IMG/VR virus record: IMGVR_UViG_3300022745_000136
Span: 1 to 25,312 of that record
Strand: one strand, 5' to 3'
Source of the DNA: a virus
DNA length: 25,312 nt
Part shown: piece by piece, positions 4,465 through 22,005 of the stretch
Layout of the letters: every line of letters starts with the position of its first letter
Position numbering within the stretch: the stretch's first letter is position 1
Made by a program: the position numbers and the translations under genes
Notes under the pieces: model-generated
What the model saw: the letters and a program-made list of their open reading frames with translations, nothing else
What the model was told of the DNA's origin: nothing
Database searches by the model: none

Positions 4465-4536
4465 TGCAAGACCCCTTCGCCACAAGGCAAGGGAAAACCA
4501 GGGCCAAATGGTGCGCCCGCTTTTTTCGGAGGACTC
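4465..4536 (+). promoter_or_regulatory. Structured leader of the capsid gene
   Basis: This 72-nt gap holds a hairpin at 4473-4493 (CCCTT, bulged C, GCC, loop ACAA, GGC, AAGGG). A short GGGC/GCCC hairpin follows (about 4501-4519) and leads into TTTTTT at 4521-4526. GGAGG then sits 5 nt before the capsid ATG. The second hairpin plus T-run resembles a weak attenuator or an mRNA-end signal. The arrangement may set capsid mRNA level or stability; this is inference. Confidence 0.35.
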
Positions 4537-6213
4537 ATGTCTCTCAAGGATCTCGTATTTTCGCCTCCGGATTTTGCCGCGAGCGCTTTCGCTGGTGGTC
4601 CGGAGTTTCGCAGCGCCAACGGTGGGGGAACGCCCCCGGGCGGCCAGGGCAACGGCCAGGGCGGGCAGAATGCTCCCCAGGTTCCCAATTTCAAAAATCG
4701 TGGCGAAGAGCTGGTCTGGTTGCGCTCGCAAAAGCTCAACCTGCTCAATGAGGCCAGGGCGATGGGTGATCGCCTGAAAGCCGAAAAGCGAACCTGGACT
4801 CCCGAAGAAGAGTCCCGGGTTACCGCGATTGAAACCCAGATGCAGGATTTCAATAACCGCATCACCGCTTGTGAAACCGCCATTCAAGGCGATGCCAGCG
4901 CAGATGCTGGAAGTAACAGCCTGCCCCAGGGTGGCAAGCAATCCCGGTCTTATGAGGATTTCATCGCTGGCCTGGAAAAGTCCTTTGTCGGACACAATCC
5001 CGCCCAGCAGCGGTCCGCCAATGGCGGCCAGGGGCAGGGCAATCACCAGCAGCCACCCATGCAGAACGCCCAGGGACAGGGCGGTAATAATCATCGGGCC
5101 AGTCAGCCGATTCCCGCCGGCGCAGCCTCGATCAACTACATGCACACCTACGGCAACAAAACCGATCTGGAATTGCGCCGCAACGCGATGCAGGGCTGGG
5201 CTGGCGCCGAACGCCGGAACATGTTCACCAAAGATCAGCAGCGCCAGCACGATGAAGCTGCCGAAGTTCTGGGGATCGATCTGCGCGGGAAAACCTTCGA
5301 GATCCCGATCAGCCAGGAGCAATTCGACAACTACCGTCAAAAGGAAAACCGGGTGATGACCGTCGCGTCGTCCACCCTGGGTTCCAAGGCGGTTCCAACA
5401 ACCCTGATTGACAAGGTGGTCGAGCGCCTGGTCGCTATTGCCCCGATTCGCACCGTTGCGGATCAGTTCACGACCGAAACCGGTCAGCTGATGCCTTTCC
5501 CGACGATTGACGATTCGGCCAATAAAGGTCGGGTTCGGGCAAGCGAAACCATGGCTGGCAGCAAAACCGATGTCGCCATCGGGCAACGGTCCTATGACTG
5601 TTTCGAGTTTGCCTCGGATATCGTCCTGGTCTCCAATCGGCTGATTCGTGACTCGATCTTCGCCCTGGAAAATCGACTCGGCCAACTGTTACCACGGCGC
5701 ATTGCCCGCAACCAGGCGGACAAGTTCACCAACGGTTCCGGTACCGGCGAGCCCGAAGGAGTCGTCACCAGCGCGACCGCTGGGGCAACCGCCCTGGCTC
5801 AGGCCGCCCTGGTCCGTCGGGATTTGATCAAGCTGCAAAACAGCCTCGATCAGGAATACCAGCAAAATGCCATGTGGCAATTTCCCCTGTGCGTCCTGGA
5901 AGCGCTCCAGCTCATGGAAACTACTACGGGCGAACCGCTTTTCCACAAGATCAGCGAAGGCAATCCGCCTTTGCTCTTGGGCAAACCCTGGATGTTGAAC
6001 CAGTCGATGGTTTCCGCCCTGTCCACTGGGGTTGTCGCGGTTCTTTACGGCGATTTCCGCCTGGGCTATTCGATCCGCGATGTCGGGTCTTTAGTACTCT
6101 CGCGCTCCGAAGAATACGCCTGGGACTCTGAGCAGGTGGCCTTCAAGGCGATTCTGTCCTCCGATGGCCGGGTGGTTGACCCTTACGCCATCCAGAAATT
6201 GACGATGGCATAA
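4537..6213 (+). CDS. Major capsid protein, HK97 fold, with long N-terminal scaffold
   Basis: This is the main shell protein. Residues from about 268 to 558 carry the HK97 capsid pattern: STLGSKAVPTTLIDKVVERL, then MPFPTIDD, the GSGTGEPEGV loop and a C-terminal YGDFRLGYSIRDVG...AFKAIL segment. The N-terminal 265 residues include a predicted coiled coil (about 49-110), as in delta/scaffold domains. Two Gly/Gln/Asn-rich stretches (about 25-48 and 160-190) flank it. At 558 residues it is much longer than typical HK97-type capsid proteins, so proteolytic maturation by the upstream protease is expected. GGAGG 5 nt before the ATG is one of the best ribosome sites here, in keeping with high expression. 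Confidence 0.93.
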   Translation: MSLKDLVFSPPDFAASAFAGGPEFRSANGGGTPPGGQGNGQGGQNAPQVPNFKNRGEELVWLRSQKLNLLNEARAMGDRLKAEKRTWTPEEESRVTAIETQMQDFNNRITACETAIQGDASADAGSNSLPQGGKQSRSYEDFIAGLEKSFVGHNPAQQRSANGGQGQGNHQQPPMQNAQGQGGNNHRASQPIPAGAASINYMHTYGNKTDLELRRNAMQGWAGAERRNMFTKDQQRQHDEAAEVLGIDLRGKTFEIPISQEQFDNYRQKENRVMTVASSTLGSKAVPTTLIDKVVERLVAIAPIRTVADQFTTETGQLMPFPTIDDSANKGRVRASETMAGSKTDVAIGQRSYDCFEFASDIVLVSNRLIRDSIFALENRLGQLLPRRIARNQADKFTNGSGTGEPEGVVTSATAGATALAQAALVRRDLIKLQNSLDQEYQQNAMWQFPLCVLEALQLMETTTGEPLFHKISEGNPPLLLGKPWMLNQSMVSALSTGVVAVLYGDFRLGYSIRDVGSLVLSRSEEYAWDSEQVAFKAILSSDGRVVDPYAIQKLTMA

Positions 6214-6237
6214 TCCGACCCGCCATGGTCTCTGATT

Positions 6238-6293
6238 CAAGGCAGGCATCCCCCGGCTTGTAACCAGGGAACTCGATTGCCTGCCTTGTTTTT
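6238..6293 (+). terminator. Stem-loop after capsid gene; tRNA-derived appearance
   Basis: An 11-bp perfect stem pairs 6238-6248 (CAAGGCAGGCA) with 6278-6288 and is followed by TTTTTGTTT, so it could terminate or attenuate transcription or protect the capsid mRNA 3' end. Inside is a second hairpin with the seven-base loop CTTGTAA (6257-6263), which has the layout of an anticodon loop (U33, UGU, A37). A CTCGATT stretch resembles a T-loop. There is no D-arm. About 25 bases align with the tRNA-like element at 9243-9314. The functional class is uncertain. Confidence 0.5.
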
Positions 6294-6324
6294 GTTTCGG
6301 TTCCATTACCAATGAGTCCAAACG

Positions 6325-6525
6325 ATGAAAGCGATTCTGAAAACGAGCCTGATGACTACCGCGGCTGGATTCCCTTCTGGATCCACGATCGACACCGATG
6401 CGCCCGGATGCCCATTGAACGAAGTCGAGCTCAGGCGTTACATCGACAACGGGCTGGCCACGCCCGTCAGCGGCGAACCCGAAGTCCCCGAAAAGCGGGC
6501 CAATGACCGCAAGGAAAAAAGGTAA
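6325..6525 (+). CDS. Small late-operon protein, paralogue of 9349-9531
   Basis: This 66-residue protein lies between the capsid and connector genes. I do not recognise a function. It contains D-x3-P-G-C-P (around residues 24-31) and a C-terminal charged tail. The same D-x3-P-x-C-P arrangement occurs in the 60-residue protein at 9349, which also begins MK and also follows a structured element behind a major virion gene. Its leader GAGTCCAAACG-ATG resembles GAGGTCCAGACC-ATG at 9349. The frame ends 9 nt before the connector gene. A competing ORF from 6312 in another frame has a less protein-like composition and was not chosen. Confidence 0.6.
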   Translation: MKAILKTSLMTTAAGFPSGSTIDTDAPGCPLNEVELRRYIDNGLATPVSGEPEVPEKRANDRKEKR

Positions 6526-6534
6526 CAAGCAACT

Positions 6535-7209
6535 ATGGACCCTTACGCCCCCTATTACCCTTACGGGTATCCGAATCCAACGGACGAGCCCGAGTTTGTC
6601 TTTGACGAGACTTACGCGGCGCCGGGGGCGGCGGTCCTTTCCATCACGCAGATCAAAACCCTCTGCCGGATCGAATTGACGGATGACGACCCGTCCGATC
6701 CAGCCGTTATCGCGCGGGATGCCAGCCTGCTGGATTACGAAAAAAGCGCGCGCGATTACTGCGAAAAACTGAGCGGTTTTGTTTTCTCGCCGACGACTTT
6801 TCGGATCCTTTGCCCAAGGCCTTCGGTCGATGGCCGGATCTACCTGCGCAAGGCCCCGGTCACGGCGATCACCAGCGTCAAGTTCTACGGCACCGATGGC
6901 AATCAGCGCACCTTGACGGTCAATACCGACTACCAGCCCTGGATGGTCGGCAACGATCCTTTCATCGCCCCGCCATCGGGGGGATCTTTCTTTTCCAATC
7001 TTCAGATCAGTCCGCCCCGGCAAGACGCGATCGAGATCATTTTCACGGCGGGGTTCGCCTCGAATCGATTGCCCCAGCGGTTTTTGGACGGGATCCGGAC
7101 TTACATCTCCTGGCGCAACGACAACCCCGGCGATGTCGTCACCGTCCCCGAAGCGGTCAACAGTTTTTGCCGGACTTCCCGGATCCGGAGGCGCGGGCCC
7201 AATGGCTAA
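6535..7209 (+). CDS. Head-tail connector protein (gp6-like)
   Basis: This is likely the adaptor ring that docks under the portal. After a Tyr/Pro-rich N-terminus, residues from about 36 follow the Phage_connect/gp6-like plan: helices with LSITQIKTLCRIE, a helix around SLLDYEKSARDYCEKLSG, beta strands (IYLRKAPVTAITSVKFYG, then DAIEIIFTAGF), and a final helix around RFLDGIRTYISWRND. The location after the capsid gene is the standard one. The 224-residue length is at the upper end for the family. An AAAAAAGG sits upstream of the ATG. The C-terminus is basic and overlaps the next gene by 8 nt. Confidence 0.82.
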   Translation: MDPYAPYYPYGYPNPTDEPEFVFDETYAAPGAAVLSITQIKTLCRIELTDDDPSDPAVIARDASLLDYEKSARDYCEKLSGFVFSPTTFRILCPRPSVDGRIYLRKAPVTAITSVKFYGTDGNQRTLTVNTDYQPWMVGNDPFIAPPSGGSFFSNLQISPPRQDAIEIIFTAGFASNRLPQRFLDGIRTYISWRNDNPGDVVTVPEAVNSFCRTSRIRRRGPNG

Positions 7210-7543
7210 GGAAGCGCAATACGCCAAGAAGTACATTGAGCGCTGGGCCTTGCAGGAGGTCACCGGGACCACCATCGTCAAGGGTCAACAGGTCCAGACC
7301 TGGGCGACCTACCGCAGCGTCTGGGCCGCCTCGACCGAGGTCACTTCCGCCGAGATCGGTCTGGCCATGGGACTCCATGAAAAGTGTTCCCACCTGGTCG
7401 AAATGCGATTCTATGACCGGATCACTTCCCAGCACCGCCTCACCCGCAAGGGCCGGATCCTCAATATCCTGGGTGTCACCAACCCCGATGGCCGCCGCAT
7501 TGAAACCAGGCTGGCCTGCCTGGAAATCAAGCCGAAAGCGTAG
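7202..7543 (+). CDS. Head-tail adaptor / head closure protein
   Basis: This 113-residue beta-rich protein matches the Phage_H_T_join (SPP1 gp16-like) pattern. An N-terminal region mentions the test direction (QVQTWATYRSVWAASTEVTS), and a later strand region, RFYDRITSQHRLTRKGRILN, is followed by ILGVTNPDGRRIE. Such proteins close the portal channel before the tail joins. I chose the ATG at 7202 because GGAGG (7187-7191) is correctly spaced. It overlaps the connector stop by 8 nt. A longer reading frame from 7133 would overlap far more and has no SD. Confidence 0.8.
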   Translation: MAKEAQYAKKYIERWALQEVTGTTIVKGQQVQTWATYRSVWAASTEVTSAEIGLAMGLHEKCSHLVEMRFYDRITSQHRLTRKGRILNILGVTNPDGRRIETRLACLEIKPKA

Positions 7544-7552
7544 GCCGACTTT

Positions 7553-8350
7553 ATGGCCAAAAAGCAAGTTCCCCAGGCCAACTTCCAAGTCACCAAGTCC
7601 GGCGATGCGTTCGAGGTTTCAATCCCGATCATCGATATCGTTTTGGAGCGAGTGATCACGGATCTGGGGATCACCAAAGGTTTCGCGATCTACAAAAAGG
7701 CGATCCTGGCGGCTGGCCGGGTCGGGTTACGCTATCTGCGGGCCGAGCTCAAGAAGCATTATGGCAGGTTAAATAAGTCTCAAAAACGGTTCCAGTCATT
7801 TGAATACGGCGAGACTGGAGCGCTGACGGCAGCGCAACGGGTTTATTTTCGCACGGCCAAAAGCGGGCTTTATTCTTATGCCGTGATCGGCACGGACGCA
7901 GATCTTCAAGTTCCAGCCAGGCGCGGCAAGCAGACGATCTACGCCAAGCCCTCTTCTTATATCCACCTGGTCAACCAGGGTTTTATCGCCGTGGGCCGGG
8001 TCGCCGGCCAGCGTGGGCGCAAGACCAATCAGGATGTCGTCTGGGCACTGCGCACCATCGCCCGTCACCAGAAGATCGAAAACGCCTCAAAACTGGGAAT
8101 GAGGCGCCTCCTCGAAGAAAAAACCGACCGTCTCTTTTTTCAGCAGACCGGGGCAAAACGCTTTGCTCTGCGCTCTGCCTACATCGCCCGCTACCAGTCG
8201 GCCAAAAAGACCACCGTCGAGGGTCGCTTCTATCTGCAAAAAGCGGCCCGGTCCAGCCGGGACGATTCGGTCGCCGCGGCGATGACGACCATGCAGACCG
8301 AATTTGAAAAGGCACTCAAGGAAATGGAACAAAGGAACCCCGTCCCATGA
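7553..8350 (+). CDS. HK97 gp10-like neck/minor tail protein
   Basis: This 265-residue basic protein occupies the slot of HK97 gp10-like morphogenesis proteins, between head closure and tail terminator. It is helical and Lys/Arg-rich with a beta segment near YSYAVIGTDADLQVPARRGK, and it includes YIHLVNQGF, similar to the fold-signature 'hvvEfGt' region of gp10 relatives. It is longer than the usual 120-170 residues because of a C-terminal helical extension (from about residue 160). The stop overlaps the next start as ATGA. Assignment depends largely on synteny. Confidence 0.6.
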   Translation: MAKKQVPQANFQVTKSGDAFEVSIPIIDIVLERVITDLGITKGFAIYKKAILAAGRVGLRYLRAELKKHYGRLNKSQKRFQSFEYGETGALTAAQRVYFRTAKSGLYSYAVIGTDADLQVPARRGKQTIYAKPSSYIHLVNQGFIAVGRVAGQRGRKTNQDVVWALRTIARHQKIENASKLGMRRLLEEKTDRLFFQQTGAKRFALRSAYIARYQSAKKTTVEGRFYLQKAARSSRDDSVAAAMTTMQTEFEKALKEMEQRNPVP

Positions 8351-8775
8351 GCATCGAATTTGGCACCGCTGTCCGAGGATTTTTGATCGCGGACACCGCC
8401 GTCGCAGCCGCCCTGCCTGGCGGAATCTGGCTCAATGTCGTTCCTCCCGATGTCGCCCTGGATGACCCCGCCGCGATCTACACGGTCCAGCGATCCGACC
8501 GGCCCACCTCCTGCTCTGGGGCGCTCAATCATCGGGATGTGACGCTTTCGCTCGAATTTGTGGGGGTCAATCCGACCCAGGCCCAGGCGGCTCATGGGGC
8601 AATTGAAGACCGGATCATGGCCCACTGGAACGAAGCCATCACGCAGGACGGGACCAAAGTCTCCCAATTGGAGCTGGGGGAGTTCCTCGAACAGACGGAG
8701 GACCTGAGCGACGGCAGCGGGACGACGCTGACCCGTTTCAAAACGACCATTTCGGGGGCCCTGATACTCAGCTAG
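8347..8775 (+). CDS. Tail terminator / completion protein (gp17, DUF3168-like)
   Basis: This 142-residue protein would cap the tail tube at the head-proximal end. Features typical of the family are an N-terminal helix (FGTAVRGFLIADTAVAAALP), a strand after the PAAIYTVQRSD segment, a VTLSLEFVG strand and a C-terminal FKTTISGALIL strand. It is translationally coupled to the upstream gene through ATGA (8347-8350). Its own stop (8773-8775) directly abuts the hairpin that covers the ribosome site of the tail tube gene. Confidence 0.72.
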   Translation: MSIEFGTAVRGFLIADTAVAAALPGGIWLNVVPPDVALDDPAAIYTVQRSDRPTSCSGALNHRDVTLSLEFVGVNPTQAQAAHGAIEDRIMAHWNEAITQDGTKVSQLELGEFLEQTEDLSDGSGTTLTRFKTTISGALILS

Positions 8776-8791
8776 CCCCCATCCGGGGGTG
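8776..8791 (+). promoter_or_regulatory. Hairpin over the tail-tube ribosome binding site
   Basis: CCCCC (8776-8780), loop ATCC and GGGGG (8785-8789) form a GC-only hairpin whose right arm is part of the SD-like GGGGGTG for the ATG at 8794. The TAG of the upstream gene ends at 8775, so a terminating ribosome would melt the stem. This suggests translational coupling of tail terminator to tail tube. Confidence 0.5.
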
Positions 8792-8793
8792 CC

Positions 8794-9231
8794 ATGTCCG
8801 CAATCAATGTCACAAGAACGAGAGCGACGACGGCCACCATCACCCCGTCGACCGGCTCCGCCATCACCCCGGCCCACCCCAAATCGATCAAGGGCTTGAC
8901 CTGGGAACGGGAGGTGATCGAGTTCACTTCCATGACCCTCGACCAGATGCGACGCATCTGCGGTGAGAAAAAGTTTGAACTTCTGGTGATTACGGTCCTT
9001 TATTTCAAATCCGAATTCACCGCGCTTCAGACGGTTTTCAACAATAACTACACCTGCTCGACCGCCTTGGTGATGCCCAAGGACATCGCCAACACGACCT
9101 CGACCAACAAGACCGTCACGATCACCGGTCAGATCGCCAAGATCATGGAATCCGATGTCACCGACGCGGGCAACGCCGAACCGCAAACACTCGAAATCAC
9201 CATCGCCACCGATGAGGTCACCGTCAGCTAA
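8794..9231 (+). CDS. Major tail tube protein (candidate)
   Basis: This 145-residue Thr-rich beta protein is the best candidate for the tail tube subunit because it lies between the tail terminator and the tail assembly chaperones. The Thr-rich N-terminus, central WEREVIEFTSMTLDQMRR helix region and C-terminal strands (KTVTITGQIAKIME, TLEITIATDEVTVS) fit small tube proteins. I see no long insertion or Ig-like C-terminal domain. Its SD (GGGGGTG) is folded into a hairpin. An initiator-tRNA-like element follows after 11 nt. Confidence 0.65.
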   Translation: MSAINVTRTRATTATITPSTGSAITPAHPKSIKGLTWEREVIEFTSMTLDQMRRICGEKKFELLVITVLYFKSEFTALQTVFNNNYTCSTALVMPKDIANTTSTNKTVTITGQIAKIMESDVTDAGNAEPQTLEITIATDEVTVS

Positions 9232-9242
9232 TCGCCAGACAT

Positions 9243-9314
9243 CGCGGGAGGGAGGTAGGCATCTCGCCCCGGCTCATAACCGGACTGAAACCGGATCAAT
9301 ACCGGTTCCCGCAA
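9243..9314 (+). tRNA. Initiator-type tRNA-Met(CAU)-like element
   Basis: The sequence folds as a cloverleaf. The acceptor has position 1 (C9243) mismatched with position 72 (A9313), then six Watson-Crick pairs. The D-stem is GAGG/TCTC with a GG-containing loop. The anticodon arm has loop CTCATAA (9273-9279, anticodon CAU) on four pairs. The variable loop is CTGAA, and a perfect 5-bp T-stem carries loop ATCAATA. The C1:A72 mismatch, A11:U24 pair (9253/9264) and CUCAUAA loop are marks of bacterial initiator tRNA. Deviations are G at position 8, A at 54, an extra base near 26, a mismatched 27:43 pair, no GGG:CCC run in the anticodon stem and no encoded CCA. It may be functional, degenerate or only tRNA-like. 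Confidence 0.5.
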
Positions 9315-9348
9315 ATCTTCCTTTTTCTCTTTTCCTGAGGTCCAGACC

Positions 9349-9531
9349 ATGAAGTTTAAAGTCTTACGCGATTTCGTCACCGGCAATGCCGAGCTGGTCA
9401 AAGATCAGATCCTCGATTCCAAAGACCCCGCTTGCCCCATCCCCGTCAAGCTCCTGGCCAAGCTAGGGGAAAATCTCTGCTCGATCGGCCACCTCGAAAA
9501 GGTCGAAGACGGGACACCCGCGCCCGTTTAA
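9349..9531 (+). CDS. Small late-operon protein, paralogue of 6325-6525
   Basis: This 60-residue protein follows the tRNA-like element and precedes the tail assembly chaperones. It starts MKFKVLRDF, has a short strand-like region, D-x3-P-A-C-P (around residues 23-31) and an acidic/Pro C-terminus. The pattern is that of small phage proteins with a hydrophobic N-terminal strand and a 'leaving Pro' motif; function is unknown. GAGG eight bases before the ATG supports the start. It shares motif, leader and genomic setting with the 66-residue protein at 6325, so the two are probably paralogues. Confidence 0.7.
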   Translation: MKFKVLRDFVTGNAELVKDQILDSKDPACPIPVKLLAKLGENLCSIGHLEKVEDGTPAPV

Positions 9532-20865: not shown

Positions 20866-20887
20866 CCAAGTGTCAACTGACACTTGG
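20866..20887 (+). promoter_or_regulatory. 22-bp palindrome at the integrase leader
   Basis: Two 10-base arms (CCAAGTGTCA and TGACACTTGG) are separated by AC, so the sequence is a near-perfect palindrome. It ends at the start of the integrase SD GGAAGGAG. CAAGTG/CACTTG hexamers also recur near the ribbon-helix-helix gene. It may be an operator, an RNA hairpin that affects the ribosome site, or both. Confidence 0.6.
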
Positions 20888-20904
20888 AAGGAGTTCTTAC
20901 CCCT

Positions 20905-22005
20905 ATGGACCAGCCCAAAATCTCTTGGCACCCGGCATCAAAAAGGGCTTACATTACTTACCAGAAAAAAAGGTACTATCTGGGCCGGTGGGAGGATAAA
21001 ACGGCACCGATCCCCAAAGAAGTTAAGCTGAAATACCATTCCGTAGTTGGTCAATTGTGGCATATGGGAAAGACTGAAGAAGTCCGACCAGCCGAATACT
21101 CCATCGGGGAAATGTGCGCGGAATACCTAAATGCGATAAAAGAAAAATTGCATCCGGCCAGCTATGCCGCCGTAGGCCTGGCGTCCCAAAAACTTTGTTT
21201 GCTTTTTGGAACGGCGGATGCCAACACTTTCACGGCAGGAAAATTGAGGAAAGTCCAAGAGTATTACATCGAACAAAAGTTGAGCCGCGGGTACATCAAT
21301 TCCCAAATGGGTTGGATTCTTCGGATTTTTCGATGGGCCGTCTCGTTTGACAAAATCCCGCCAACTGTTTTGGTTTCGATCAAAACGGTACCTGGTATTT
21401 CAACAGGCACGAAAGGGGTTCGTGAGGCGCCTGGGGTCAATATGGTTACGCTGGATACGGTTAAGAAAACCTTGCCCCATCTCTTTGAGCCAATTCGCTC
21501 CATGGTCAAGATTCAATTAATGACCGGAGCTCGGCCTGGTGAAGTCCGCGCCATGACCTGGGGCGCTATTGATCGGTCCGATAAATCCATGTGGATCTAT
21601 TCTCCCAAAGAACACAAGACGGCCCGCCTGGGTAAGGTCCGAACCATTCCCCTTGGACCAGAAGCCCAAGCGGTCCTGATGCGTTTTCCCAAATTGGATC
21701 CTGACGCCCCGATTTTCGATCCCGCTCTGGCCACAAGAGGAGAGGCAAAAGGCCCACCTAAGAAATACAACCGATTGAGTTATCCTTACGCGATTCGCCG
21801 AGTTTGCGAAAAACATGAGATCCCGGTTTGGAACCCGCGCCAGCTGCGGAAACTGGCCGCGCAAAGGGTCGATGATATCCTGGGAATCGAGCACGCCAGC
21901 GCCCTGCTTGGCCATGGTGGAAGCGATATAACCAGAAGAGTTTACGCCAAATCACAACTGGAAAAAGCTAAGAAGGCTACGCTCAAAATTGAAAAAATTT
22001 CCTAA
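20905..22005 (+). CDS. int: Tyrosine recombinase (phage integrase)
   Basis: This enzyme would integrate and excise the phage by strand exchange. The 366-residue protein has an N-terminal arm-like domain (AYITYQKKRYYLGRW), a core-binding domain (about 60-170) and a catalytic domain. R210 lies in TGARPGEVRAM, a lysine is near K244, R315 is in NPRQLRKLA, H337 in LLGHGG and Y347 in ITRRVYAK. The His normally found in box II (HxxR) is replaced by Arg312. The start is the ATG at 20905, with AAGGAG eleven bases upstream; a TTG at 20884 lies inside the palindrome. The N-terminal YYLG motif and the C-terminal layout are like integrases I associate with planctomycetes (from memory). Confidence 0.9.
   Translation: MDQPKISWHPASKRAYITYQKKRYYLGRWEDKTAPIPKEVKLKYHSVVGQLWHMGKTEEVRPAEYSIGEMCAEYLNAIKEKLHPASYAAVGLASQKLCLLFGTADANTFTAGKLRKVQEYYIEQKLSRGYINSQMGWILRIFRWAVSFDKIPPTVLVSIKTVPGISTGTKGVREAPGVNMVTLDTVKKTLPHLFEPIRSMVKIQLMTGARPGEVRAMTWGAIDRSDKSMWIYSPKEHKTARLGKVRTIPLGPEAQAVLMRFPKLDPDAPIFDPALATRGEAKGPPKKYNRLSYPYAIRRVCEKHEIPVWNPRQLRKLAAQRVDDILGIEHASALLGHGGSDITRRVYAKSQLEKAKKATLKIEKIS

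Follow-up and report, generated by a model that had tools for sequence, protein, structure and literature searches.

A probable divergent initiator-type tRNA gene and two paralogous small genes in the head and tail module of a viral contig

Two RNA elements, each followed by a gene for a small MK protein, occur in the head and tail module of the viral contig IMGVR_UViG_3300022745_000136, one behind the capsid gene and the other behind the putative tail tube gene, and raise the question of whether they represent two copies of a single cassette or elements of different nature. The original prediction, made on the window (the entire IMG/VR contig of 25,312 bases, a lone viral contig), described a duplicated unit of a tRNA-derived element plus a small protein, foreign to the standard arrangements of phages. 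As described there, a structured element (E1) and a 66-residue reading frame (A) follow the capsid gene, another element (E2) and a 60-residue frame (B) follow the putative tube gene, and the motifs and element-to-ATG spacings quoted for both sides are present in the sequence. The reading preferred here, with a probability of about 0.72, is that E2 is a phage-encoded divergent initiator-type tRNA, which would provide an extra late initiator together with a separation of messages, that E1 is an unrelated terminator-like hairpin, and that A and B are paralogues.

According to Pfam and PHROG matches for terminase, portal, protease and HK97-type capsid, the window contains a head and tail module of the siphovirus type (Table 1). 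The label "tail tube" is only positional, the 145-aa protein matching no family in Pfam or PHROG; it shares 69% identity with the proteins encoded at the corresponding position of three viral contigs (L002-L004), and a tube alignment used as query recovered the same three contigs only. The capsid protein as sole query recovered no loci, and the relatives discussed below were obtained with a capsid alignment instead. The presence of an integrase gene indicates that the phage is probably temperate.

Table 1. Coordinates of the features discussed, with the solitary tRNA genes of the E2 group found at other viral loci.
Feature	Position	Strand	Remarks
Major capsid protein gene, HK97 type	4537-6213	+	Pfam Phage_capsid 6.3e-45; phrog_10 1.3e-37
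E1, GC-rich terminator-like hairpin	6238-6297	+	Stem CAAGGCAGGCA / TGCCTGCCTTG, inner stem, 7-nt loop, U-run 3'
Small MK protein A, 66 aa	6325-6525	+	Paralogue of B
Putative tail tube protein gene, 145 aa	8794-9231	+	Named by position
E2, divergent initiator-type tRNA gene (predicted)	9243-9314	+	Anticodon CAT 9275-9277; A73 at 9314
Small MK protein B, 60 aa	9349-9531	+	Paralogue of A
Integrase gene	20884-22005		phrog_1 5.9e-32
L127 group tRNA			Solitary; behind decoration gene and hairpin
L158 group tRNA			Solitary; ~1 kb upstream of large terminase
L245 group tRNA			Solitary; upstream of small terminase
L254 group tRNA			Solitary; between terminase and portal

The earlier designation of E2 as initiator-tRNA-like proved right and can be strengthened to that of an initiator-type tRNA gene. 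With bacterial tRNA-fMet, E2 shares the cloverleaf, the CAT anticodon in the 7-nt loop CTCATAA (9273-9279) with U33 and A37, the C1xA72 mismatch, A11:U24 in a D-stem GAGGT/ATCTC, the G30:C40 and G31:C39 pairs, and A73. Its initiator identity relies on positions 1:72 and 11:24, judged by published counts: C-A at 1:72 occurs in 3392 of 4438 bacterial initiators versus 3 of 5479 elongator Met/Ile2 genes, and A:U at 11:24 in 4430 of the 4438 initiators and in no elongator (PMC5143459). However, the third initiator hallmark, GGG/CCC or AGG/CCU at 29-31:39-41, is replaced by CGG/CCG, with C29:G41 instead of G29:C41, a combination that is found in none of the 4438 initiators but in 869 of 2762 elongator Met genes (PMC5143459). 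E2 also differs from tRNA-fMet in the loss of U8 (GG at positions 8-9), in a 5-bp D-stem that closes, in the best stem, a loop of just 4 nt (AGGC) rather than a normal-sized D-loop whose G18G19 could contact the T-loop, in A instead of T at position 54, and in the lack of an encoded CCA. Despite these many substitutions, nearly all stem positions pair, the T-stem being fully paired, and A7:U66 and C29:G41 depart from the canonical pairs yet still pair.

Aligned with a bacterial initiator tRNA, E2 reaches a score of 30, the best of 40,000 shuffles attaining 19. A covariance model (R1) built from 18 other viral tRNAs of the E2 group, E2 being left out, gives 67.4 bits (E 7e-12), up to about 34 of which are built in through the 17 fixed positions of the pattern by which the seeds were picked and which E2 also has; the next match in the window is at 11.6 bits. 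On reference sequences, R1 gives 60.6-68.7 bits for genuine bacterial initiators, 36-57 bits for annotated phage tRNA-Met genes, and 20.5 and 25.2 bits for elongator tRNA-Met. A second model (R2), made from canonical bacterial initiators and thus partly independent of R1, assigns 49.4 bits to E2 and no more than 11.9 to anything else in the window, which speaks for tRNA character rather than for initiator identity because R2 also scores elongator tRNAs well. By both models, E2 displays the cloverleaf and conserved nucleotides expected of tRNAs in general. ARAGORN at its default setting and the Rfam tRNA model RF00005 miss it, Rfam searches of the window and of each element separately returned no meaningful match, and ARAGORN reports a tRNA-Met(cat) at 9242-9315 only from a threshold of 97% downwards. 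In a longer RNA surrounding E2, the fold of lowest energy is a structure other than the cloverleaf, no more stable than shuffled sequences (z -0.07).

E2 very probably belongs to a group of initiator-like tRNAs distributed among unrelated phages, which was delineated by scans for exact patterns. The first scan, for the initiator frame, returned at least 120 stretches, and among the matches listed 12 were missed by ARAGORN, a few of them being clearly E2-like cloverleaves; the second, requiring GG at positions 8-9, returned 22 stretches including some 17 cloverleaves. In all 19 members (counting E2) positions 1 and 72 form a mismatch, C facing U, A or C at a position (72) which the search did not impose. 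The tRNAs of L158, L250, L259 and L260 have the GAGGT...ATCTC D-arm, the GG at 8-9 and the 1:72 mismatch of E2, but differ from it by D-loops of 5-9 nt in three of the four (4 nt in L250), by their genomic settings and, for L158 and L259, by an encoded CCA. Solitary members stand amid genes for packaging or the head, or in their vicinity (Table 1), and several others are inside tRNA clusters. The query derived from the group also recovered tRNA-Met genes of Pseudomonas phage pf16, Mycobacterium phages Myrna and prophiT49-2, and Komagataeibacter phage phiKX1, which have the CAT anticodon in common with E2; these annotated genes are nearer to canonical tRNAs, are found by standard tools, and mostly form part of tRNA clusters or lie outside the structural region. 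A search of 299 genomes of Pseudomonadota type (the phylum of genome G012) for the group pattern gave no match, and E2 is absent from its nearest relatives, L002-L004. Two R1 matches at 18 bits in the relatives' records were dropped, as neither contains CTCATAA.

Some further peculiarities were observed among these viral tRNAs. Nine members (L158, L165, L189, L238, L246, L250, L251, L255 and L257) have G for U at T-loop position 55, e.g., TGCAAGT and GGCAGTA; most of them encode CCA, and they constitute a second unusual sub-type. In L165, two adjacent CAT-anticodon tRNAs, one ordinary and the other a member of the E2 group, occupy positions 395-570. Pseudanabaena phage Pan5 (L267, ON968456) possesses at 1483-1554 an unannotated initiator-like tRNA-Met (R2 85.5 bits, ARAGORN-positive), within which the annotated gene Pan5_41 (1497-1787) begins.

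Membership in such a group leaves the function of E2 to be weighed. It could derive from an initiator tRNA without taking part in translation, and be kept behind the tube gene as a processing signal for RNase P and RNase Z or as a 3'-end signal. Such a role would suit an element flanked by coding genes within a late operon, and also the retention of cloverleaf pairing in a molecule that has no CCA, has lost U8, has a 4-nt D-loop and is altered at 29:41; on the capsid side, E1 would achieve the same through termination. Processing alone, however, does not require that the initiator-specific features at 1:72 and 11:24 persist, and ACCA directly follows the acceptor stem in 11 of the 18 other members, several of which reside in tRNA clusters, as suits working tRNAs. 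A purely processing role is for these reasons considered unlikely, and E2 may work as an initiator in translation, a proposal to which we give slightly better than even odds.

As for E1, the succession of capsid gene, structured element and 66-residue frame was confirmed, and the element itself is a stable GC-rich hairpin (6238-6288) followed by TTTTTGTTT, i.e., a hairpin with a U-run as in intrinsic terminators. Its folding energy has a z value of -2.9, none of 200 shuffles being equally stable. Among relatives recovered with the capsid alignment, about 10 lineages have, directly 3' of the capsid gene, a stable hairpin whose tail is often T-rich; a small MK protein follows and then, in several of them, a head-tail connector. 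These hairpins, e.g., those of L019, L021, L069 and L072, resemble E1 in position and stability and by the small MK protein that comes next, and most share its T-rich tail, but their sequences are unrelated to each other and to E1, whose inner loop is longer; in most cases their energies are well under those of shuffles. In a large clade (L025-L062), the small protein begins at the capsid stop codon without any hairpin. Since hairpins of unrelated sequence recur there together with a small protein in about 10 lineages, we take E1 to be this phage's version of a widespread arrangement and, most plausibly, a terminator-like element. The belief that the unit is not standard in phages has consequently to be given up for the capsid side. 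The expectation of an element behind each virion gene in homologous phages holds for the capsid site in these lineages, and fails for the tube site in L002-L004, where the B-related protein directly follows the tube gene with no RNA element between. In the gap 5' of the capsid gene (4465-4536), a possible hairpin GGGC...GCCC is followed by TTTTTT and then by GGAGG; because of this hairpin and T-run, the capsid gene may be flanked on both sides by terminator-like structures.

The view that E1 and E2 arose by duplication of a single RNA element, with E1 later reshaped into a hairpin, draws on a common core, AGGYAGGCATC(n3)CCCCGGCTnnTAACC, which extends over 26 aligned positions with 3 mismatches and one 3-nt gap. 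Its local score of 28 was equalled in 22 of 40,000 double shuffles (p ~5e-4) and, with softer scoring, in 97 of 40,000, a modest significance (p ~5e-4 to 2e-3). In addition, ARAGORN at 97% flags exactly the E1 and E2 sites, as compared with 0.017 hits per shuffled window, and the adjoining small proteins are paralogues. Conversely, the tRNA-Thr(tgt) fold proposed by ARAGORN for E1 was rejected as forced, requiring a very long variable loop and breaking the strong hairpin. Compared with 57 tRNAs, E1 shows no notable similarity, and its similarity to the viral tRNA group is not significant (154 of 1500 shuffles are as good). Conservation of structure, proposed as a check on both elements, is evident for the group of E2, in which 9 of 16 predicted pairs have changed on both sides; E1 hits neither R1 nor R2. 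The search of viral contigs with the core as a DNA pattern did not find the same pair, nor any contig at all, and the 11 scattered matches in genomes are about the number we estimate for chance. With unrelated hairpins occupying the E1 site in relatives, a common origin of the two elements is judged improbable: E1 and E2 are different things, and a partial copy of E2 turned into a hairpin is possible for E1 but not needed.

Thus, the repeated unit of RNA plus reading frame stands for the proteins and not for the RNA elements. Compared directly, A and B show a weak similarity (p 0.019), and their relationship becomes apparent through the protein that follows the capsid gene in L019, which both match strongly, A with a score of 93 and B with 77 (0 of 1000 shuffles in both cases). 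A also matches the corresponding protein of L004 (91), and B the one that follows the tube gene there (53), again with 0 of 1000 shuffles. A and B are accordingly paralogues, belonging to a widespread type of small protein common in phage head and tail operons. L067 and L069 likewise have another small protein broadly of this type close to the tube gene. A small protein of L069 weakly matches DUF7210 (PF23843) and phrog_2616 (8.7e-5 and 8.5e-5, under the Pfam cut-off), whereas A and B match no family. Protein B as query recovered no loci.

Two other explanations of E2 carry little weight. A decaying tRNA pseudogene, captured from a host or from another phage, would account for the divergence from canonical initiators, the loss of several conserved nucleotides and the absence of E2 from relatives, but is very unlikely in view of the almost complete pairing of the stems, the fully paired T-stem, the changes on both sides at 29:41 and 7:66, and the closeness of E2 to other viral members (score 38 with L259 and 35 with L158, the best of 1500 shuffles reaching 18). 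An attachment site (attP) overlapping a host initiator tRNA can hardly be envisaged, even though tRNA genes are common phage attachment sites and the phage has an integrase, for E2 is a complete divergent cloverleaf rather than a short stretch identical to the 3' portion of a host tRNA and lies 11.5 kb from the integrase gene, not beside it.

If E2 is a divergent initiator-type tRNA, it would be transcribed within the late mRNA, from its place between the tube gene and the gene of B; the host RNase P would cut its 5' end and the 3' tRNA-processing enzymes its 3' end. The excised molecule would then receive CCA, be charged, and act as an extra initiator tRNA during the synthesis of virion proteins, its excision resulting, as a by-product, in a cut between the tube message and the downstream message. 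E1 would limit read-through 3' of the capsid gene, as in related phages. That E2 is expressed, processed, charged and used in initiation, and that it separates messages, we infer from general knowledge of tRNA processing. A separation of mRNAs by two different means, termination at E1 and tRNA excision at E2, is plausible.

The presence of tRNA genes in phages has long called for an explanation. E2 is the sole recognisable tRNA gene of a small contig, is of initiator type and lies inside the virion operon; compensation for rare codons cannot account for it, and it points to control of translation initiation or to replacement of an attacked host tRNA. Evasion of anticodon nucleases by phage tRNAs has been proposed, and phages are reported as a rule not to carry tRNA-fMet in cases where this tRNA is a VapC target (PMC10264068). 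Resistance of E2 to such nucleases is a hypothesis suggested by that work, to which the sequence alone lends no support because the loop is unchanged and only the stem differs; the divergent initiator group nevertheless offers a direct test case for the proposal. Default tRNA annotation misses E2-like genes, and their frequency is therefore underestimated. Quite tentatively, a special lineage of phage initiator tRNAs in which the D-arm is reduced, U8 is missing and the 29:41 pair is altered may have been overlooked by tRNA finders, its members standing solitary among packaging, head and tail genes, where a phage-specific initiator might bias late translation or survive the tRNA-cutting defences of the host.
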